From a virus: DNA of 23,175 bases. Position numbers and translations under genes: made by a program. Positions within the stretch are counted from its first letter, which is position 1. Each line of letters opens with the position of its first letter. The stretch spans positions 1 to 23,175 of the IMG/VR virus record IMGVR_UViG_3300037247_001998; one strand, 5' to 3'. Below the pieces are notes generated by a model. The model did not search any database, had not been told where the DNA came from, and worked only from the letters and a program-made list of their open reading frames with translations. This document shows positions 11,238 through 20,375 of the stretch, one piece after another.

Positions 11238-11843
11238 ATGCCAAATGCCCCGTTCGAGATCGTCGCCGCGCCGTTCACCGTCTGGTGGGCGCCGACCGGC
11301 GAGACCTTCCCCGACGTCGACGAGACGCCCGCCGGCAACTGGACCAAGATCGGCACCTCGGGCGACCGCAACTATTCCGAGGACGGGGTCACCGTCTCGC
11401 ACCAGCAGACGGTCGAGCTGATCCGCGTCCTCGGCTCGACCGGCCCGGTCAAGGCCGCGCGCACCGAAGAGCTGCTCGTCGTCAGCTTCACCCTGTTCGA
11501 CATGCTGCTCGAGCAGTACCGCTTAGGCCTGGACAACAACGCCGTCACCACCACCGCCGCCGGCTCCGGCACCCCGGGCTACAAGGAGGTCGACCTCTAC
11601 CGCGGCCTCGATGTCACCATGCTGGCGCTGCTCGTGCGCGGCACGGTCAGCCCCGAGGGCGACGGCTGGAACACTCAGTACGAGGTGCCCCAGTGCTTCG
11701 AGTCGGGCTCGCCCGAGCCGGTGTTCGTCAAGGGCGCCCCGGCCGCCCTCGCGCTCGAGTTCACCGCGATCGAGGACCCCAACGCCTCCTCGGCCGCGGC
11801 CCGCTTCGGCCGCCTCGTCGTCCAGCACCAGACGGCGATCTGA
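11238..11843 (+). CDS. Major tail tube protein
   Basis: A 201-residue tube subunit. It starts after AAGGAG (11225-11230), one of the stronger ribosome-binding sites here, as expected for an abundant protein. The N-terminus (V-W-W-A-P-T-G-E-T-F-P-D-V-D) followed by W-T-K-I-G-T-S-G and a long polar loop, then beta-rich segments with E-E-L-L-V-V-S-F-T-L and a C-terminal F-G-R-L-V-V-Q-H-Q, match siphophage tail tube proteins with a single beta-barrel. It lies between the terminator and chaperone genes, as expected. The stop overlaps the next ATG (TGATG). Confidence 0.85.
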   Translation: MPNAPFEIVAAPFTVWWAPTGETFPDVDETPAGNWTKIGTSGDRNYSEDGVTVSHQQTVELIRVLGSTGPVKAARTEELLVVSFTLFDMLLEQYRLGLDNNAVTTTAAGSGTPGYKEVDLYRGLDVTMLALLVRGTVSPEGDGWNTQYEVPQCFESGSPEPVFVKGAPAALALEFTAIEDPNASSAAARFGRLVVQHQTAI

Positions 11844-12067
11844 TGCACCCGCTGCTCGCCGAGGCGCAACAGCTCGACGCGCAAGCACGCGCGCACAAGC
11901 GTGCCGCCCAGCGCCACCGCGACTCCGCCAAGGCGTGCCGCATCAAAGAGGCCGAGCTCAGGGAGCAGTGCGCGCGCCTCGGCATCGAAGTCACCGATCC
12001 CCCCTCAACCACCAGCGCAGGAGATCTCCATGGCCGACCAGGTCCTCAACCTCGATACCCTCGTTGA
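11843..12067 (+). CDS. Small Arg/Ala-rich helical protein, function unknown
   Basis: A 74-residue protein starting at the ATG that shares one base with the tail tube stop. Residues 1 to about 50 are a basic, Ala-rich helix (A-H-K-R-A-A-Q-R-H-R-D) with two Cys (A-C-R-I-K and E-Q-C-A-R). The C-terminal ~20 residues overlap the start of the chaperone gene and are probably dispensable. No membrane segment is visible. The position between tube and chaperone genes suggests a tail assembly accessory. The overlap makes it plausible as a real gene but the function is unknown. Confidence 0.5.
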   Translation: MHPLLAEAQQLDAQARAHKRAAQRHRDSAKACRIKEAELREQCARLGIEVTDPPSTTSAGDLHGRPGPQPRYPR

Positions 12068-12485
12068 GCGCCCGCAGATCAGGATCGACGGCACGCTCTA
12101 CGACATCCTCTCGCCCGACGAGCTGAGCATCCTCGACCATCACCGCCTCGCCCGCACCAGCAAGCGGATGGACGCGCTGATGTCGAAAGAGCCGCTCGCC
12201 GGTGCCGATGCCGACGAGCTCCCGGTCATCTTGCGCGAGGTCTCCGATCGGATCATGGTCGGCGTGCCGGGCGAAGTCCGCTCCAAGCTCACCGACAGCC
12301 ACCGCCTCGAGGTGGTCGAGGTTTTTACCGTGCTGCAGCGTCGCCGCAGGATGGCGATGCTGCAGATGCTCGTCCGCCCGATTGGGGACAGCTCGCCCCG
12401 CGGCTTCAACGGTTCTACGGCGGCGATCCCGCCTGGTGGATCGAAACCGCCCCCCTCGGCCTCGTCCGCGCCTATCTCGACATGA
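12030..12485 (+). CDS. Tail assembly chaperone, short product (gpG-like)
   Basis: A 151-residue 0-frame product starting at the ATG 7 nt after GCAGGAG (12016-12022). The conserved part is residues 1 to about 99: L-N-L-D-T-L-V, R-I-D-G-T-L-Y-D, S-P-D-E-L-S-I-L-D-H-H-R-L and K-L-T-D-S-H-R-L-E-V-V-E-V-F. After that the 0-frame peptide becomes Ser/Pro/Gly-rich and looks like readthrough of the other frame. In siphophages a -1 shift joins such a protein to a second domain, as in lambda gpG/gpGT, to load the tape measure. A slippery site and hairpin sit at 12320-12365, exactly where the conserved region ends. Confidence 0.8.
   Translation: MADQVLNLDTLVERPQIRIDGTLYDILSPDELSILDHHRLARTSKRMDALMSKEPLAGADADELPVILREVSDRIMVGVPGEVRSKLTDSHRLEVVEVFTVLQRRRRMAMLQMLVRPIGDSSPRGFNGSTAAIPPGGSKPPPSASSAPIST
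12320..12365 (+). promoter_or_regulatory. -1 programmed ribosomal frameshift signal
   Basis: The slippery stretch G-GTT-TTT (12320-12326, 0-frame codons GTT TTT) is followed by a 6-nt spacer (ACCGTG) and a 13-bp hairpin: arms 12333-12345 and 12353-12365, one G-U pair, 7-nt loop. The A-site Phe codon re-pairs perfectly after a -1 slip; the P-site pairing is imperfect. A slip here joins the 0-frame chaperone to the frame of the downstream domain, which has no start codon of its own nearby. Confidence 0.75.
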
Positions 12486-12673
12486 TGCCGAGGCTCCAGG
12501 CCGAAGAGGCGCTCGACGCGGCGACTGCCGCCGCGCTCGGCGCCGGCACTCTCAAGCATGCCGACGCGCACAGGCTGTGGGCCTCGCTGCGCCGCCGCGC
12601 CGCGCCGGCGCCCGCGCCCAAGGCCGATCGGCGCATTCTCGCCCTGATGGGGATCGAGGTCGTCGATGCCTGA
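12326..12673 (+). CDS. Tail assembly chaperone, frameshifted extension (gpT-like domain)
   Basis: This is the -1 frame continuation. With the 99 residues before the slip it would make a 214-residue fusion (12030-12673). The segment reads D-W-G-Q-L, R-L-Q-R-F-Y-G-G-D-P-A-W-W-I-E, P-L-G-L-V-R-A-Y-L-D-M-M-P-R-L-Q-A-E-E-A-L and H-A-D-A-H-R-L-W, a clearly coding, helix-rich pattern of tail chaperone second domains. From at least 12230 to 12482 this frame has no ATG, GTG or TTG, so translation must enter by frameshift. An ATG at 12482 is internal to the conserved domain and would give only 63 residues. The stop overlaps the tape measure start by 8 bases. Confidence 0.78.
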   Translation, partial: YRAAASPQDGDAADARPPDWGQLAPRLQRFYGGDPAWWIETAPLGLVRAYLDMMPRLQAEEALDAATAAALGAGTLKHADAHRLWASLRRRAAPAPAPKADRRILALMGIEVVDA

Positions 12674-14714
12674 GAAACTCGGCTCGGCCGTCCTCGAGCT
12701 CAGGACCGACGACTCGAAATACCTTGCCGGCGTCCGCAAGGCACGCGGCGGCGCCGCCAAGCTCGGCCGTGAGCTCAAGAAGACCGGCCGCGGCGCCCAC
12801 CAGTTCGAGCGCGACCTCGGGCGCGCCGCTCGCGGCGCCGACCGCCTGAGCGGCTCCCTCGGCTCGGTCCGCGGCGTCCTCACCGGCATCGGCGTCGTCT
12901 TCGGCGCGCGCGAGATCGTCCGCGGGATCGGCGCCGTGGTCAGCGCCGGCGCCGACTTGCAGGCGCAATACCTCCAGATCAACCAGTTGCTGCGGACCAC
13001 CGGCAGCATCTCCGGCCAGACCGCCGCCTCGATCGAGCGCCTGTCGCGCGAGATCGGCTTCGCCACCCTCGCCTCGATCCGCGAGGTCCGCGCCGCCGCT
13101 GCCCAGCTGCTGACCTTCCGCGCGATCTCGGGCGACGTCTTCGAGCGCACGCTCCGCGCCGCCCAGGACCTCGCGAGCCTCGGCTTCGGCTCGCTCGGAT
13201 CGAGCGCGGTCCAGCTCGCCAAGGCGCTCGAGGATCCCGCCCAGGGGCTCACCATGCTCCGTCGCGTCGGCGTCAGCTTCACCCAGACGCAGCAGGACCT
13301 CATCAGGACGCTTCACGAGACCGGCCGCGTCGCCGAGGCCCAGCGCGTCATCCTCGCCAACGTCGAGGCCCAGGTCGGCGGCGCCGGCGCCGCCGCCGGC
13401 GGCGGCCTCTCCGGCGCCGTCGACGCGCTCACCGAAGAGTGGAATCTGCTCACCGAAGCATGGGGCGAGAACATCGCCAAAGGCTCGCTGCTCCAAGGCG
13501 TGCTCGAGGGTCTCGCCGGCGCAGTGAGCGCCATCAGGCCGCGCAATCTGGAAGAGCAGATCGAGCTGGAGCGTCGGCGCATCGAATGGCTCAAGCAAAA
13601 CCTGCTGCCTCCTCCGGGCGCTTTGGCGCTCGCCCGCGACCGCCTCGCCGCTCTTGAGCAGGAGCAGGCGTTGCTCCAGGAGCAGGAGCGTTTCGCTGCC
13701 CGCCTGCGCGGTGGCGGCACCGCCGCCGGGGGTCTCTCGACCGACGAGATCGAGCGCCGCCGCGCGGTTTTCGACGCCCAAGCCATCGCCCTCGACGCCG
13801 TGCGCAAGGCCGAGATTGAGCACGCTCGTGTGCTTGAGATCGTGCGCCAGGCGGCCGAGGCCGGCATCGGCACAGCGCAGCAGCGCGCCCGCGTCATCGA
13901 GCGATCGGAGGCGCGCGTGCGCGCGGCGATCATGGCGACCCGTGCCGAGGTCGAGAAATCGCTCCTCGCCGCGGCGCGCGCTAGGCCGCCCGGCGCGCTC
14001 GGCCTCCCCTCGATCGCCCGTCCCGATCTCGGCGGCCGTCTGCCGACCCAGCCGTTCCCCGGCGCCGCCGAGGAGTTCGAGCGCCGGCTGTTCGCCGCCG
14101 ACCCGGTCGCCCGCCTCAACGCCGAGCTCACCGACCTCCAAACCCTCCAGCTCGCGCTCGGCAAGACTACTGCCGAGATGGCACCGCTCTACGACGACCT
14201 GTGGTCGCGCGCGTCGACGGGCGCGCGCGATACGACCGATCGGGTCGGTGATCTGTCGGACGCGTTTGCCTATGTCGGCTATGTCAGTGTCGACGCTTTC
14301 GCGCGCATGGCCGAGGAGGGCGGAAAATTGATCGACGTGCTCAAGGCCCTCGCGATCGAGATATCGCGGATCGGGCTGAGGACCTTTGTGACCGGCCCCC
14401 TGTCGCGTGGGATCGAGGCTGGCCTCGGCGGGCTGTTCGGCGGCGACGGCGCGCGTGAGGTGCAGGGATTGTCGTGGCTCGGCCGCCAGCACGGCGGCGC
14501 GGTGTGGCCGGGGCAGGCGTTCATGGTCGGCGAGCGCGGCCCCGAGCTTTTCGTTCCCGAGCAGCGCGGCGCGGTGCTCGCCGGCGCGGGCGGGATTACC
14601 ATCAACATCGGCCCCGTCGTCAGCCCCGACGCGGATTCGTTCAACCGCTCGCTGCCCAACCTGATGGCCAGCGCTTTCCGCGCCGCCGCGCGCGAGGCAC
14701 GGAGGCGCAACTGA
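12666..14714 (+). CDS. Tail length tape measure protein
   Basis: A 682-residue tape measure, the ruler and DNA-channel precursor of the tail. The N-terminus is basic and helical (K-L-G-R-E-L-K-K-T-G-R-G). A hydrophobic Gly-rich segment (V-R-G-V-L-T-G-I-G-V-V-F-G) follows near residues 70-85. The R-E-I-G-F-A-T-L-A-S, A-Q-D-L-A-S-L-G-F-G-S-L and A-L-E-D-P-A-Q-G-L-T-M-L-R-R-V-G region matches the prophage tail length tape measure family. The C-terminus has H-G-G-A-V-W-P-G-Q-A-F-M-V-G-E-R-G-P-E-L-F-V-P, typical of lambda-like tape measures. At about 0.15 nm per residue this predicts a tail near 100 nm. Its ATG overlaps the chaperone extension stop, and the stop overlaps the next ATG (TGATG). Confidence 0.9.
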   Translation: MPEKLGSAVLELRTDDSKYLAGVRKARGGAAKLGRELKKTGRGAHQFERDLGRAARGADRLSGSLGSVRGVLTGIGVVFGAREIVRGIGAVVSAGADLQAQYLQINQLLRTTGSISGQTAASIERLSREIGFATLASIREVRAAAAQLLTFRAISGDVFERTLRAAQDLASLGFGSLGSSAVQLAKALEDPAQGLTMLRRVGVSFTQTQQDLIRTLHETGRVAEAQRVILANVEAQVGGAGAAAGGGLSGAVDALTEEWNLLTEAWGENIAKGSLLQGVLEGLAGAVSAIRPRNLEEQIELERRRIEWLKQNLLPPPGALALARDRLAALEQEQALLQEQERFAARLRGGGTAAGGLSTDEIERRRAVFDAQAIALDAVRKAEIEHARVLEIVRQAAEAGIGTAQQRARVIERSEARVRAAIMATRAEVEKSLLAAARARPPGALGLPSIARPDLGGRLPTQPFPGAAEEFERRLFAADPVARLNAELTDLQTLQLALGKTTAEMAPLYDDLWSRASTGARDTTDRVGDLSDAFAYVGYVSVDAFARMAEEGGKLIDVLKALAIEISRIGLRTFVTGPLSRGIEAGLGGLFGGDGAREVQGLSWLGRQHGGAVWPGQAFMVGERGPELFVPEQRGAVLAGAGGITINIGPVVSPDADSFNRSLPNLMASAFRAAAREARRRN

Positions 14715-15744
14715 TGACCCTGCTCTTTGCCGATAGCTTCGACAACTACGGCAGCAATGGAGCAAGCATTGACGCTGCGCTCGCTGCTGCGGGGTGGTTG
14801 TCTTCGGGCTCGGTAAGTCAGCAAACGGCCGCGGCCGATGTACGAACTGGTCGCGGCTCCGCACACTTCACTACGCTATCTGACTTGCGCTACCGCACCC
14901 CCGCAGACCAAGATACGCTGATCTTCGGTGTGGGCTGGATGAGCAAGCGCGGGCCACCCGTCGCTGAGACCTTCTTTACTCTTCAATACAACAGTGGTGC
15001 CGAGGCGTTCGACCAAATAACGATTGGCGTCGATACCAATAATGCGATTGTCGTGAAGAACGGTGATGGCGAGGTGCTTGGCACGAGCGCGATTCAAGTG
15101 TTCACCCTCATGAATTTCAACTTTGTCGAGGTCAGAGGGACGGCACATGATACGGCCGGTGTCGTCATCGTAAGGGTCAATGGCGATGAGGTGCTCAACC
15201 TAACGGGCAAGGACACGACCAAGGATAGTCCCGAGGTCGCCACGATTAACCAAATCAAGCTCCAAGGCAATTCCGGTACGACGTATCGAGTGGACGGTTT
15301 CTATTGCTGCGACACGAACGGTGCGGTCAACAACGACTTCCTCGGGGATGTCCGGAACTGGTCCTTGCTTCCGGACGGCGCCGGCGACGCCACCGAATGG
15401 ACGGTGAGCGGCGCGGCGTCGACGAGGAGGTCCCGGACGAAGATGCGACCCACAACGCCGCCTCGGTCGCCGCCAAAAAGGACCTCTTCACCCTCAAGGA
15501 CCCGGCGGCCGGCATCACTACGATCCATGGCGTGCGCGTCGTCGTGCGCGCGCGGCGCGAGGAGGGCGGCGCGGGCGATCTCAGAATCGTCATCAAGCTT
15601 TCCGGCACCGAGCTCGAGTCCGATGTTCTCACCCTCAGCACGACGTACAAAAACTACAGCTGGATTTTCGAGACCAAGCCGGGCGGCGGCAACTGGACTC
15701 CCGCCGACGTCGCCGGGTTGCAGATCGGCTATAAGTACGTCTGA
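14714..15744 (+). pseudogene. Frameshifted tail protein gene (beta-sandwich, LamG-like N-terminal part)
   Basis: The 5' part (from the ATG at 14714, overlapping the tape measure stop) encodes L-L-F-A-D-S-F-D-N-Y, F-T-L-Q-Y-N-S-G and V-E-V-R-G-T-A-H-D-T, a concanavalin/LamG-like beta-sandwich, then D-F-L-G-D-V-R and T-E-W-T-V-S-G. At about 15413-15420 good coding moves to another frame, which reads V-D-E-E-V-P-D-E-D-A-T-H-N and continues to the TGA at 15744 with T-T-I-H-G-V-R-V-V-V-R-A-R. In related phage proteins a few residues normally lie between these segments, so a deletion of about 10-13 bases is likely. The 5' part has visibly lower GC than its neighbours. A sequencing error cannot be excluded. 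The stop overlaps the next start (TGATG). Confidence 0.7.
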
Positions 15745-16568
15745 TGGCAGGGTCCCGCGTCACACAAATCTACGCGGAAGCAATCGGCGAAGGAGCGCTT
15801 GCGCGTGTCACACAGGTCTACGCGGAAGCGATCGGCGAAGGAACGGCGAACTTCGTCACCCAGCTGAGCGCCGAGGTGATAGGCGCCGGCGGGCCGGATT
15901 TCACATGGAGCGAATGCATGGGCTTTCTCGAGGAGAGGTTCCCGACCGACGTCGCCGCCGCGGGCACCGCCGGTGGGCCGGGGTTCAGCACGCTCCAGAC
16001 CCGCGTCCGCTCGGGCTGGTCGCAGCGGATCGGCGAGTGGGAGGAGGAGCTCGGCCGCTGGGACGTGAGCGCCGGCATCAACACCATCGGCAAGCTGATC
16101 GAGGTCCGCAGCCTCTACGCCGTCGCCCACGGCCCGCGCGACGGCTTCAGGTTCAAGGACCCGCTCGATTACGCCACCTGGCAGTGGGTCGAGCAGGTCC
16201 CCGGCGTCATCGGCGCAACCGACATGCAGATCGGCACCGGCGACGGCGCCACCACCAAGTACCAGCTCACCGTCACCCGCACCTATGGCGGCTCGACCAC
16301 CACCAAGACCATCTACAAGCCCGTCGCCGCGACGGTGAAGGTCGCGGTCAACGACGTCGAGATATTCACCTGGACGCTCGACGATACCACCGGCGTGATC
16401 ACCTTCGACGCCGCGCCGGGGGCCGGCGAGTCGGTCAAGTGGGGCGGCGAATACGACAAGCCCGTCCATTTTTCCGAGGACACCCTGCTGATGAGCCACG
16501 ACCGCGAGGCCAACCTGGTCAGCTCGCTCGTCGTCCTCGAGGAGCTAAGAAGGCTCGACACGCTATGA
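15744..16568 (+). CDS. DUF2460 distal tail protein (GTA gp12-like)
   Basis: A 274-residue tail-tip protein. The first ~50 residues are three 16-residue repeats of the form V-T-Q-x-x-A-E-x-I-G, which are not part of the usual DUF2460 domain. The core follows: G-G-P-G-F-S-T, R-S-G-W-S-Q-R-I-G-E-W-E, W-D-V-S-A-G-I, a G-P-R-D-G-F-R-F-K-D-P-L-D-Y signature, and a final F-S-E-D-T-L-L-M-S-H-D-R. In the GTA of Rhodobacter the equivalent protein is the distal tail ring between tube and hub. It starts at a TGATG overlap with the broken gene and overlaps the hub start by 4 bases. Confidence 0.87.
   Translation: MAGSRVTQIYAEAIGEGALARVTQVYAEAIGEGTANFVTQLSAEVIGAGGPDFTWSECMGFLEERFPTDVAAAGTAGGPGFSTLQTRVRSGWSQRIGEWEEELGRWDVSAGINTIGKLIEVRSLYAVAHGPRDGFRFKDPLDYATWQWVEQVPGVIGATDMQIGTGDGATTKYQLTVTRTYGGSTTTKTIYKPVAATVKVAVNDVEIFTWTLDDTTGVITFDAAPGAGESVKWGGEYDKPVHFSEDTLLMSHDREANLVSSLVVLEELRRLDTL
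15759..15893 (+). repeat. Three 48-bp tandem repeats encoding VTQxxAExIG units
   Basis: Units begin at 15759, 15807 and 15855. The first two are nearly identical in DNA (GTCACACA start, then a 26-base stretch with one difference); the third is diverged. Each adds a 16-residue V-T-Q...A-E...I-G-x-G segment to the N-terminus of the DUF2460 protein. Confidence 0.8.
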
Positions 16569-17617
16569 AGCCGACCACCGCCGCCCAGCAGGCGCTGCTC
16601 AACTGCGAGACGGTCAGGATGGCGCTCTGCCTCAAGCTCGAGCGTCCCGACGGCGGCCTCGATCTCGGCTTCACCTCCCACGACCGCGAGCTGACGATCG
16701 CCGGCCTCGCCTACAAGCCCGAGCAGTCGCTGAGCCCGTCCGCGATCGAGGGCAAGGCCGACTTCTCGGCCGACTCGGGCGAGCTCGTCCTGCTCAGTTC
16801 CGACCAGATCACCGAGCGCGAGCTCAAGGGCGGCGTCTGGGACAACGCGATCGCCACCCTGTTCGCGGTCGTCGATTGGAGCGATCTCGCCGCCGGCACG
16901 GTGCCCTTGAAGCGCGCGCGGCTCGGCCGCTTCGAGGTCGAGCGCGGGCGCTTCCGCGTCGACCTCGTCGGCCTCGGCGAGCTCGTCCAGCAGCCGGTGG
17001 TCGACATCACCAGCCTGTTGTGCCGCAACCGCTTGGGCGACGCGAGCTGCCGTGTGCCGCTCAAGCCGGCCGTCTGGCTGCCCTCCACCGACTACACCGA
17101 GATCGAGGCCGGCGACCGCTCGGTCGGCTCTTACGTCAGCCCCACCACTTATAGCGGCCTCGACGCCGAATGCATCGTCGCCGGCACTTCGGGCGGCTCC
17201 GAACCCTCTTGGCCCGCCGCCGGCGGCACCGTGGTCGATGGCACCGTCACCTGGCGCACCTACGTCGCCTGGACCCAGCAGGGCACCGTGACGATCGCCC
17301 ACGAGCGAGTCCACTTCATCGCTTCCGCCCTCACCCAGGCGGCGGAGTGGTTCAAGTATGGCAAGCTCACCTGGCTCACCGGCGCCAACGCCAGCCTGTC
17401 ACAAGACGTCCGCCGCCACGGCGCCGGCGGCGCCTTCACCCTGTGGGACGAGATGGCCGAGCCGATTGGCGTCGGCGACACCTTCGAGGTCCACGCCGGC
17501 TGCGCGCTCCGCCACGACCTCGACTGCCGCGACAAGTTCGACAACATCAAGAACTTCAACGGCGAGCCGTTCCTGCCGGGCTCGGACGAGGCGAGCCAAT
17601 TCCCGGACGCGCGATGA
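16565..17617 (+). CDS. DUF2163 / BR0599-type tail hub protein (GTA gp13-like)
   Basis: A 350-residue baseplate hub. The N-terminal part (L-N-C-E-T-V-R-M-A-L-C-L-K-L, G-F-T-S-H-D-R-E-L, Y-K-P-E-Q-S-L-S-P-S-A-I-E-G) is the DUF2163 domain. The C-terminal BR0599 region ends with D-K-F-D-N-I-K-N-F-N-G-E-P-F-L-P-G-S-D. Four cysteines lie at C153, C162, C313 and C321 in the positions where this family typically has C-x(8)-C and C-x(7)-C pairs; the Rhodobacter GTA hub is reported to bind an iron-sulfur cluster, so the same is possible here. The ATG at 16565 overlaps the upstream stop. The frame upstream of it is also open, so the start needs this overlap for support. Confidence 0.87.
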   Translation: MKPTTAAQQALLNCETVRMALCLKLERPDGGLDLGFTSHDRELTIAGLAYKPEQSLSPSAIEGKADFSADSGELVLLSSDQITERELKGGVWDNAIATLFAVVDWSDLAAGTVPLKRARLGRFEVERGRFRVDLVGLGELVQQPVVDITSLLCRNRLGDASCRVPLKPAVWLPSTDYTEIEAGDRSVGSYVSPTTYSGLDAECIVAGTSGGSEPSWPAAGGTVVDGTVTWRTYVAWTQQGTVTIAHERVHFIASALTQAAEWFKYGKLTWLTGANASLSQDVRRHGAGGAFTLWDEMAEPIGVGDTFEVHAGCALRHDLDCRDKFDNIKNFNGEPFLPGSDEASQFPDAR

Positions 17618-18111
17618 CGACGCGCGCCGACATCGTCGCCCGCGCCCGCGAGTGGATCGGGACGCCTTACCGGCATCAAGGTCGGCGGCGCGACGGCTGC
17701 GATTGCCTCGGATTGATCGTCGGCGTCGCCGCCGAGCTCGGCCTCGCGCGCTGGGTTGTGCCCGGCTACTCGGGCCACCCCGACGGGCACAGCCTCGCAG
17801 AGGCCTGCGACAGGCACCTCGTCTCGCAGCTCGGGCTCGACCCCGGCGAGATCGAGGCCGGCATGGTCGCGCTATTCTGGTACGCGCGCCGCGGCTTCGC
17901 CCAACACCTCGCCATCCTTACCCGGCTCGACGACCGGCGCCTCGCCATGGTTCACAGCTTGCAGCGCAATGACCGCGTGGTCGAGCACGGCCTGAGCGCC
18001 TTCTGGAACGTCCGCCTCCTCAGCGCCTGGGATTACCCAGGCGTGGCACGCGGAGCCGCGGAGGTCGCGGGGAGTTCATTCTTCTCCGCGTCTCCGCGTG
18101 AGGTGACCTGA
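17614..18111 (+). CDS. NlpC/P60-family tail peptidase (GTA gp14-like)
   Basis: A 165-residue papain-like peptidase that likely cuts peptidoglycan stem peptides during DNA entry. The N-terminal helix ends in W-I-G-T-P-Y-R-H-Q-G; the catalytic Cys is in D-G-C-D-C31-L-G-L, the His in A-Q-H98-L-A-I-L, and a second His in M-V-H114-S-L. The C-terminal ~20 residues (about 144-165) come from a dispersed chromosomal repeat and are not part of the fold. The ATG overlaps the hub stop by 4 bases, and the stop overlaps the next ATG (TGATG). The order DUF2460, DUF2163, NlpC, megatron is the GTA tail-tip order. Confidence 0.88.
   Translation: MTTRADIVARAREWIGTPYRHQGRRRDGCDCLGLIVGVAAELGLARWVVPGYSGHPDGHSLAEACDRHLVSQLGLDPGEIEAGMVALFWYARRGFAQHLAILTRLDDRRLAMVHSLQRNDRVVEHGLSAFWNVRLLSAWDYPGVARGAAEVAGSSFFSASPREVT
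18045..18100. repeat. Dispersed palindromic repeat with CACGCGGAG / CTCCGCGTG arms
   Basis: Arms CACGCGGAG (18048-18056) and CTCCGCGTG (18092-18100) are inverted. The left 17 bases (18045-18061) are identical to 5031-5047. The element lies inside the NlpC gene 3' end and finishes about 10 bases before the next start codon, the same placement as the copy at 10296-10389. Confidence 0.8.
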
Positions 18112-20375
18112 TGGCGACGTTTGCGCTCGGTGCGGCGGGGCAGGCGAGGTTCGGGCCTATCGGCGGCTTCATCGGCGGCGTCGCCGGATCGTTGATCGAC
18201 CGCATGCTGTTCGCTCCCGACCCGATCGTCCAGGAAGGCCCGCGATTGTCAGATCTCGCCCGCCAGGCGGATTCGCCCGGGGCGCCGATCGCGCGGCTCT
18301 GGGGCGCGCAGAACCGCACTGCCGGAACCGTGATCTGGACCTCGGGGCTCAAGGAGACGCGCCACGAGGAGGAGATGCAGGGGGGGAAGGGAACGCCCGA
18401 GCCGGCGGCGGTCATCGTCACCTACACCTATTCGGTCGACCTCGCGGTGCTCGTGTGCCGCGGGCCGGTGGTCGCCGTGCCGAGGATCTGGGGCGGGCCG
18501 AAGCTGGTCCGCGACTCCGGCGGCGACCGCGGCGTGTCCGACATCAGGATCGCTCTCGGCACCGCATCGCAGCAGCCCGATGCGCTCCTCGAGGCGGCCG
18601 AGGGCGCGGGTAACGTTCCCGCGTTCAGGCCGTACTGCGTCGTCTATTTCCAGGACCTCCAGCTCGCCGATTTCGGCAATGCGGTGCCGCCGCTGAGCTT
18701 CGAGGTCGATGCCGGCCCGGCGACGGTGCAGAGCGTGGCGGCCGGGCTGTTCGCCCTCGCCGGTCTCACCGCGAGCGAGTACGCGGTGACCAACGTCAGC
18801 CTCGAGCCGGTGCCCGGTTTCGCGCTCCGCCGCCTGGCGAGCCCGCGCGAAGGGCTCGAGCGGCTCGGCGCCGCGTTCGGCTTCGATGTCTCCGACACCG
18901 GCTACATGCTCAAGCTGCGCCGCCGCGAGCGCTCGCCCGACCTGGTGCTCGACGAGGACGATTTCGGCGCCGCGCCTCCCGGTGGCATCGAGGCGCGCCA
19001 GCCCGAGAGCCACGTCCGCGATTCCGAGCGCCAATTGCCGCGCCAGATCGTGCTGACCCACGGCGACCCGGACCGTGACCTTCAGATCTCCGCCCAGCGC
19101 TCCGAGCGTCTGATCAGCGAATCCGAGCGTGACATGATCATCGAGTTTCCCGGCACCCTCACCGCGAGCCGCGCCCGCGATGCGCTCGACGATCTGATCG
19201 GCGATCTCTGGTCGAATCGCTACTCCTTCTCGGTCGAGCTCCCACCGAAATATCTCCAGCTCGACGCCGGCGATATCGTCACCATCCGCCGCTCAGACGA
19301 GACATTCTGGCCGAGCTTCCTGGTCACCCGCGCTTCCATCGGCGCCGATTGGCGCATCGCCATCGAGGCGCGCCCCATCGCGCGGCGCTGGGCCATGCCG
19401 AGCGCGCCGGCGACCTCGGGGTCGATCGTCACGCAGGTCGTCCCGCTGCCGAACGACTCGCTCCTCGAGCTGATGGACCTGCCGCTCCTGACCAACGCCG
19501 AGGCGGATTCGAACGGCCTCTACGCCGCTGTCGGCGACTCCGGCGCCGGCGGCAACGAGTGGACCGGGGCGGTCCTCTATCGCTCGCCCGATGACGCCGA
19601 ATACACCGCAGTCGCCCGCTTCGACATCGGCGCGGCGATCGGCACCGCCGACGAGGCGCTCGGCACCGGGCCGTTCTACTGGCCCGACCGCGCCAACACG
19701 GTGCGGGTGACGCTGAGCTCGGGCGCGCTCGCGAGCATCACCGAGGAGCAGTGGCTGCACACCTCGCGCAACGCGGCGCTGCTCGGCGACGAGCTGATCA
19801 CCTATCGCGACGCGACGCTGATCGCCGGTACCACGTGGGAGCTATCGGGGCTCAAGCGGGGCCGCCGCGGCACCGAGTGGGCGCGGGGCAGCCACGCGAT
19901 CGGCGAGCGGTTCGTGCTTCTGACCCGCTCGACCGTCAAGCGCGTGTTCCTGGACCTCGGGCTGCTCAACAATTCGCTCTACTACAAGGCGGTGACGTTC
20001 GACCAGGCGCTCGCCGACGTCGCCGCCGAGCAGTTCGCGATCGGCGGCGAATGGGCCGCGCCGTATGCCGGGCTCGACGCCGAGGGCGCGCGCGACGGTT
20101 CGGACAACCTCACCATCGCCTGGCGCCGGCGCGGCCGCCAGGGCGGCGGAACGTGGGTCGGCGAGGTGCCGCTCGGCGAGGAGACCGAGGCCTACGAGAT
20201 CGACATCATGGACGGCGTGGTCAAGCGCACGCTCACCGCCACGAGCGAGAGTGTGCTCTACACCGCGGCCGACCAGACCACCGATTTCGGCAGCCCGCAA
20301 TCCGCGGTCGAGGTCAACATCTATCAAATCTCAGGCCTGGTCGCTCGCGGCCACGCCCTCAACGCGACGGTATAG
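18111..20375 (+). CDS. Phage tail-tip megatron protein (GTA gp15-like, without TIM-barrel region)
   Basis: A 754-residue tail tip protein. The start A-T-F-A-L-G-A-A-G-Q, a Gly-rich segment ending in A-G-S-L-I-D-R-M-L-F, G-P-R-L-S-D-L, G-A-P-I-A-R-L-W-G and A-G-T-V-I-W-T-S-G-L match the N-terminal part of the megatron family. Later segments G-P-V-V-A-V-P-R-I-W and the I-E-F-P-G-T-L-T-A region fit the phage-tail-3-like domain. Full-length GTA megatrons are about 1300 residues and carry a glycoside-hydrolase-like TIM barrel; this one is much shorter, and I see no such domain. The C-terminal ~250 residues are beta-rich, with R-N-A-A-L-L-G-D-E-L and L-S-G-L-K-R-G-R-R-G-T-E-W. It overlaps the NlpC stop and is followed 3 bp later by the fiber gene. 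Confidence 0.85.
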   Translation: MATFALGAAGQARFGPIGGFIGGVAGSLIDRMLFAPDPIVQEGPRLSDLARQADSPGAPIARLWGAQNRTAGTVIWTSGLKETRHEEEMQGGKGTPEPAAVIVTYTYSVDLAVLVCRGPVVAVPRIWGGPKLVRDSGGDRGVSDIRIALGTASQQPDALLEAAEGAGNVPAFRPYCVVYFQDLQLADFGNAVPPLSFEVDAGPATVQSVAAGLFALAGLTASEYAVTNVSLEPVPGFALRRLASPREGLERLGAAFGFDVSDTGYMLKLRRRERSPDLVLDEDDFGAAPPGGIEARQPESHVRDSERQLPRQIVLTHGDPDRDLQISAQRSERLISESERDMIIEFPGTLTASRARDALDDLIGDLWSNRYSFSVELPPKYLQLDAGDIVTIRRSDETFWPSFLVTRASIGADWRIAIEARPIARRWAMPSAPATSGSIVTQVVPLPNDSLLELMDLPLLTNAEADSNGLYAAVGDSGAGGNEWTGAVLYRSPDDAEYTAVARFDIGAAIGTADEALGTGPFYWPDRANTVRVTLSSGALASITEEQWLHTSRNAALLGDELITYRDATLIAGTTWELSGLKRGRRGTEWARGSHAIGERFVLLTRSTVKRVFLDLGLLNNSLYYKAVTFDQALADVAAEQFAIGGEWAAPYAGLDAEGARDGSDNLTIAWRRRGRQGGGTWVGEVPLGEETEAYEIDIMDGVVKRTLTATSESVLYTAADQTTDFGSPQSAVEVNIYQISGLVARGHALNATV

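Follow-up and report, generated by a model that had tools for sequence, protein, structure and literature searches.

Lambda-type frameshifting in tail assembly chaperone genes is known and widespread. In lambda itself (Levin 1993; Xu 2004; PMC5009743), the G and T frames lie between the genes for the major tail protein and the tape measure protein, and a -1 shift yields a short and a long chaperone, gpG and gpGT, at about 30:1 (PMC5009743). A second class of shift sites, the Z_ZZN tetramers, involves cognate re-pairing of the A-site tRNA only. Its U_UU.Y members are known from reporters and insertion sequences, being used by some IS1/IS3 elements (Sharma 2014; PMC4066793). In E. coli, U_UU.C and U_UU.U come second and third after A_AA.G, a stimulator is required, and active tetramers shift at 0.26–5.6% with a pseudoknot stimulator (PMC4066793). 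In phage T7 gene 10 and in cardioviruses, G_GU serves as X_XX (PMC5009743), and the cardiovirus site is G_GUU_UUU (PMC4524249). Finally, the PRFect motifs compiled for SEA-PHAGES tail chaperones include classes named 'twofive' and 'twofour', which, judged by their names, would cover GGTTTTT and GGTTTT; the PRFect classes may include U_UUY, and they are presented as pattern classes rather than as a conservation-tested single-tRNA site (PMC10885494).

The locus described here lies in a 23,175-base virus record, analyzed whole and hereafter called the window, which carries genes for terminase, portal, protease, capsid, connectors, major tail protein, G/T, tape measure and tail tip in head-to-tail order; the G/T features and their two neighboring genes are on the + strand. 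As in lambda, the G/T pair sits between the gene for the major tail protein (11238–11843; phrog_117, E 4e-7) and that for the tape measure protein (12666–14714; phrog_27166, E 8e-24; PF06791, E 1e-8). G, the predicted zero-frame tail assembly chaperone of 151 aa (12030–12485), has its conserved fold in residues 1 to about 115, and a Shine-Dalgarno sequence, AGGAG (12019–12023), can be read directly 6 nt ahead of its ATG at 12030. T, the -1-frame extension (12326–12673), would contribute 115 aa past the shift, beginning Y-R-A-A-A, and contains the conserved motifs DWG...PRLQRFYGG...MMPRLQAE; the start of the tape measure gene overlaps its end by 8 nt. The -1 frame is open over 12068–12673, and its first ATG, GTG or TTG is found at 12482, inside T. 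The start-less stretch therefore measures 414 nt, longer than the "over 250 nt" of the first-pass annotation of this DNA, and the second domain, as in lambda-type genes, occupies an overlapping -1 frame without a start of its own. The predicted fusion comprises 99 + 115 = 214 aa with the junction ...LEVVEVF-YRAAAS..., and on recomputation this size agreed with the one first given.

Like the lambda proteins, whose sequences are poorly conserved between phages, G and T are hard to place by sequence. Neither of the window proteins matched Pfam or PHROGs, PDB sequence searches with them gave nothing usable, and one relative matched the tail assembly chaperone family phrog_1442 weakly (E 0.0085). 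The AlphaFold2 model of G (mean pLDDT 80, confident over residues 10–115) has as its best viral fold match a BFVD entry named 'Tail assembly chaperone' (E 5e-6). On a second look at PDB candidates, the HK97 tail assembly chaperone (2ob9) ranked third, with a weak score (Z 4.8 over 87 residues); this likeness of the predicted fold is weak alone and appears consistent with the gene order. The model of T is helical, and fold searches with it matched nothing useful.

Across the putative shift site, the zero-frame codons of the window read GAG GTT TTT ACC. The tetramer U_UUU (12323–12326) lies inside GGTTTTT (12320–12326) and is followed by a 6-nt spacer, ACCGTG (12327–12332, read directly), and by a predicted hairpin whose 5' arm, CTGCAGCGTCGCC (12333–12345), and 3' arm, GGCGATGCTGCAG (12353–12365), enclose a 7-nt loop (12346–12352) and form 13 pairs, one of them G-U. 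The first-pass annotation had located the run, spacer and arms exactly, and the folding of 12310–12380 that it proposed as a check returned -41 kcal/mol versus -25.6 ± 2.9 kcal/mol for shuffled sequences (z -5.4, reached by 0 of 200 shuffles). The strength of the stem at that spacing outranks all other tested positions around the gene (p 0.006); an Rfam search of the window gave no match. TTTT at 12323–12326 is the only shift-prone in-frame Z_ZZN in the overlap, the remaining ones being CCCG and GGGC, and among the roughly 5,990 codons of the main ORFs just 3 have an in-frame U_UUU.

Homologs were collected for comparison. G and T gave separate matches in each of three phage records, with the boundary between the two matches at the T-run. 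The records are those of Sinorhizobium phages StopSmel and Aussie and Microcystis phage Mwe-Yong1, whose G proteins are ~40% identical to that of the window and in which GTCGAGGTTTTTACC is unchanged. All three records annotate two ORFs without a fusion. Viral contigs searched with the single G protein gave no match, and alignments were needed: scans with a T alignment yielded 37 viral contigs and a wider alignment 138, of which 80 were kept, and five bacterial contigs (Hyphomicrobiales, Phyllobacterium, Sphingobium, Devosia and an acidimicrobial MAG) were added. The homologous G/T pairs, mostly fetched by T-domain peptides alone, were grouped at 85% nucleotide identity into 71 clusters. Because all bait peptides lie within T, the search itself cannot have produced the conservation seen at the shift site. 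A G profile found G in the frame relative to which T is -1 at all 70 additional loci, as in the first set. In nearly all relatives, the zero frame extends ~35–70 codons past the shift site (12327–12485 in the window); this tail is Ser/Pro/Gly/Arg-rich, poorly conserved, and shadows the conserved T frame.

U_UUY is found at the same codon of the G-T junction in 69 of the 71 clusters, as UUU in 66 and as UUC in 3 (the shift site of L101 was placed by hand). By comparison, TTT accounts for 15% of the Phe codons in the same genes versus 66 of 69 at the site, and T occupies the wobble position before the Phe codon of the site in all 69 clusters versus a third-position T background of 11%. The only fully invariant columns are -1, 0 and +1, with T or C at +2. 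The preceding codon is GUU in 44 clusters, GCU in 12 (a count that takes in one of the two exceptional clusters discussed below), CUU in 8, AGU and CGU in 2 each, and CAU and UCU in 1 each; a few distant relatives (L045, L054) have U_UUU_UUC. Given that the first three bases vary and that P-site re-pairing is not kept, the selected unit is U_UUY and not G_GUU_UUU. The alignment of homologs recommended in the first-pass annotation thus bore out the conservation of the T-run, as U_UUY, and of covarying arms, but not that of the heptamer. Its remark that the site is not of the classic type holds: both P- and A-site tRNAs re-pair at -1 on X_XXY_YYZ, whereas GUU on GGU mismatches in the window, and the preceding base and codon vary among the relatives. 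The locus has instead what characterizes a Z_ZZN site, namely U_UUY, on which one tRNA re-pairs fully, and a 3' structure. An upstream Shine-Dalgarno stimulator was also considered and rejected, as SD-like 4-mers precede the site in 7 of 69 clusters versus 14.7 expected.

These patterns make it unlikely that the shift is a tandem slip on G_GUU_UUU, in which the Val tRNA, re-pairing imperfectly on GGU, would contribute as in T7 gene 10 and the cardioviruses. GTT is indeed preceded most often by G (25 of 43 clusters), and G_GU is a recognized intermediate X_XX (PMC5009743). However, that G is replaced by T (16), A (1) or C (1) in the other 18 clusters and largely reflects whether Glu (GAG) or Asp (GAT/GAC) is encoded there, and the codons GCU, CUU, AGU, CGU, CAU and UCU substitute for GUU without sharing any common re-pairing.

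The hairpin is conserved along with the site. In an alignment of 51 sequences, which left out the most distant relatives and with which an earlier set of 32 agrees, a 13-pair stem at +6..+18/+29..+41 after UUU is paired in 86.5% of cells, with changes on both sides at 10 of the 13 pairs. Its pairing and covariation scores were reached by 0 of 500 shuffles, and sliding the arms by 1–3 columns lowered pairing to 37–60%. The spacer in the relatives is mostly 4–6 nt, and in 49 of the 71 clusters a hairpin so placed is within the top 5% of positions in the cluster's own gene; in about 18 clusters, mainly distant ones, no hairpin at that spacing enters the own-gene top 10%. The window stem is one base off the family register (+7..+19/+27..+39), has a different sequence and does not pair in the common family register, yet the distance is kept; L070, L121 and L123 likewise form stems that differ in sequence or register and lie at equal distance. 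Judged by the usual spacing, a spacer of 5–6 nt would bring the ribosome up to the stem while UUU occupies the A site.

The sequence of the stem codes in both frames, with zero-frame LLLR and -1-frame RAPAA each conserved, and the stem could for that reason be imagined as a roleless by-product of the overlapping frames, with U_UUY alone mattering. We regard this as very unlikely, considering that covariation exceeds that of column shuffles and slid controls and that different stems form at equal distance in the window, L070, L121 and L123. Separate production of T by internal initiation, as the short second ORF in the StopSmel, Aussie and Mwe-Yong1 records implies, appears slightly less probable still. 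It would fit the two ORFs of the public annotation and the start codon present ~160–180 nt past the shift site in most relatives, but those starts are inside T, beyond DWG...RLQRFYGG, and in 31 of 42 loci, window included, no -1-frame start precedes the conserved T motif; U_UUY and the covarying hairpin would also be left unexplained. The annotated second ORFs (L001, StopSmel, 2456–2689; L002, Aussie, 2456–2683; L003, Mwe-Yong1, 2465–2683) correspond to the truncated end of T and omit its conserved DWG...RLQ part. RNA polymerase slippage producing mixed mRNAs, for which the existence of a homopolymer run speaks, was rejected as highly improbable on run length, since the run has 5 T in the window and as few as 3–4 T in several relatives (L046, L121: GCTTTC), and it would not account for a hairpin at ribosomal spacing.

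The sequence comparisons establish how the frames are arranged, that U_UUY is conserved and that the hairpin covaries, and from the frame relation, the site and the hairpin in the relatives we infer G/GT expression of the lambda type at another kind of shift site. The run of U and the conserved hairpin almost certainly make some ribosomes slip back by one base, in the window and in dozens of relatives, so the programmed -1 frameshift that the first-pass annotation proposed as joining the two chaperone domains is strongly supported by the conserved frame relation, the site and the covarying hairpin. Slippage of a single tRNA(Phe) is the likely mechanism. In our model, the majority of ribosomes would translate G through to the stop at 12485, yielding the 151-aa protein. 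A minority would be stalled by the hairpin 6 nt past UUU, with tRNA-Phe on UUU (12324–12326). This single tRNA would detach and pair fully again on the overlapping UUU at 12323–12325, one base upstream, with no re-pairing required of its neighbor, a tRNA for Val in the window and for Ala, Leu, Ser, Arg or His in relatives, and translation would continue in the -1 frame into the 214-aa G-T fusion. By analogy with lambda, two products of 151 and 214 aa would be expressed in a similar proportion, of which G would coat the tape measure protein and G-T, the less abundant one, would recruit the major tail protein. We consider it very probable that this scheme as a whole, from the single tRNA-Phe slip at U_UUU before the hairpin to a minority G-T beside G with lambda-like roles, applies to the window. 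The predicted peptides that tell the products apart are, in the window, LEVVEVFYR at the shifted junction versus LEVVEVFTVLQR in the unshifted protein and, in StopSmel, VVEVFYHAPAASQDR versus VVEVFTMLLLR.

Two clusters are exceptions, L107/L110 and L120 (G+C 42–44%): Tyr replaces Phe, and both the T-run and the hairpin arms are missing. In L107, L110 and L120, A_AAA_AAG or A_AAA_AAC is found instead in the G/T overlap, shortly before the G stop (L107, 2923–2977; L120, 2929–2974; also in L110). The first-pass annotation had named homologs without the T-run and arms, encoding the fusion by another site, as evidence against its proposal. Such homologs exist, but the presence of a canonical heptamer exactly where U_UUY is lost supports the idea of frameshifting. 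On this pattern, these AT-richer relatives have naturally exchanged their shift site. More broadly, it is probable, though less firmly so than the scheme for the window itself, that throughout a clade of alphaproteobacterial and related phages the chaperone fusion is made by a single-tRNA(Phe) slip at a bare U_UUY followed by a hairpin at near-fixed spacing, with classic heptamers (U_UUU_UUC, A_AAA_AAG) at its edges. If so, the evolutionary exchange of shift sites could be traced at the edges of the clade.

With respect to the known systems, the locus shares with lambda-type G/GT genes a conserved slippery site followed by a downstream stimulator. It differs from lambda in that the lambda heptamer is near the end of G, whereas U_UUY precedes the G stop by about 53 codons, in its conserved 3' hairpin and in the lack of a sequence family match. 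With the Z_ZZN U_UU.Y class it shares U_UUY, a downstream structure and cognate re-pairing by the A-site tRNA only, but the described cases are insertion sequences and reporters (PMC4066793), whereas here the site is found in phage tail genes with the hairpin at nearly fixed spacing. With T7 gene 10 and the cardioviruses the window shares (nearly) the same seven bases, but those sites are in other genes, cardiovirus shifting is infection-dependent and relies on an unusual 3' stimulator, and in the relatives of the window the first three bases vary freely. Thus, of the precedents first cited, lambda G/GT stands, and the arteriviruses are less close than E. coli Z_ZZN tetramers, T7 gene 10 and the cardioviruses. 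Our literature search, which did not take in Xu 2004, the main survey, found neither GGTTTTT/GGUUUUU nor U_UUY at a tail chaperone, and a survey of alphaproteobacterial phages and studies of phiLM21-like prophages and the LM21 prophage do not mention frameshifts. The X_XXY_YYZ rule usual in chaperone searches misses these phages, as seen from the three public records, in which T is annotated in truncated form and the fusion is absent; annotators thus gain a simple rule for a large phage group. The occurrence of U_UUY in 69 of 71 clusters together with a covarying hairpin also provides a data set on the minimal sequence with which bacterial ribosomes can be made to shift at a low but useful rate.

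Two further features of the window were observed. A small ORF (11843–12067, +) has a start codon that overlaps the stop of the major tail protein gene (TGATG), and it ends within the start of G; it has no family match, and a similar sequence (EARRHKREERRHRMAARDAREKLA) is present at the same position in L014–L016. The tail-tip genes (15744–20375) look like those of the Rhodobacter gene transfer agent, with DUF2460, phiJL001 Gp84 N/BR0599, NlpC/P60-like and Rcc01698_C members, although the first of this set carries the PHROGs label 'glycoside hydrolase'.
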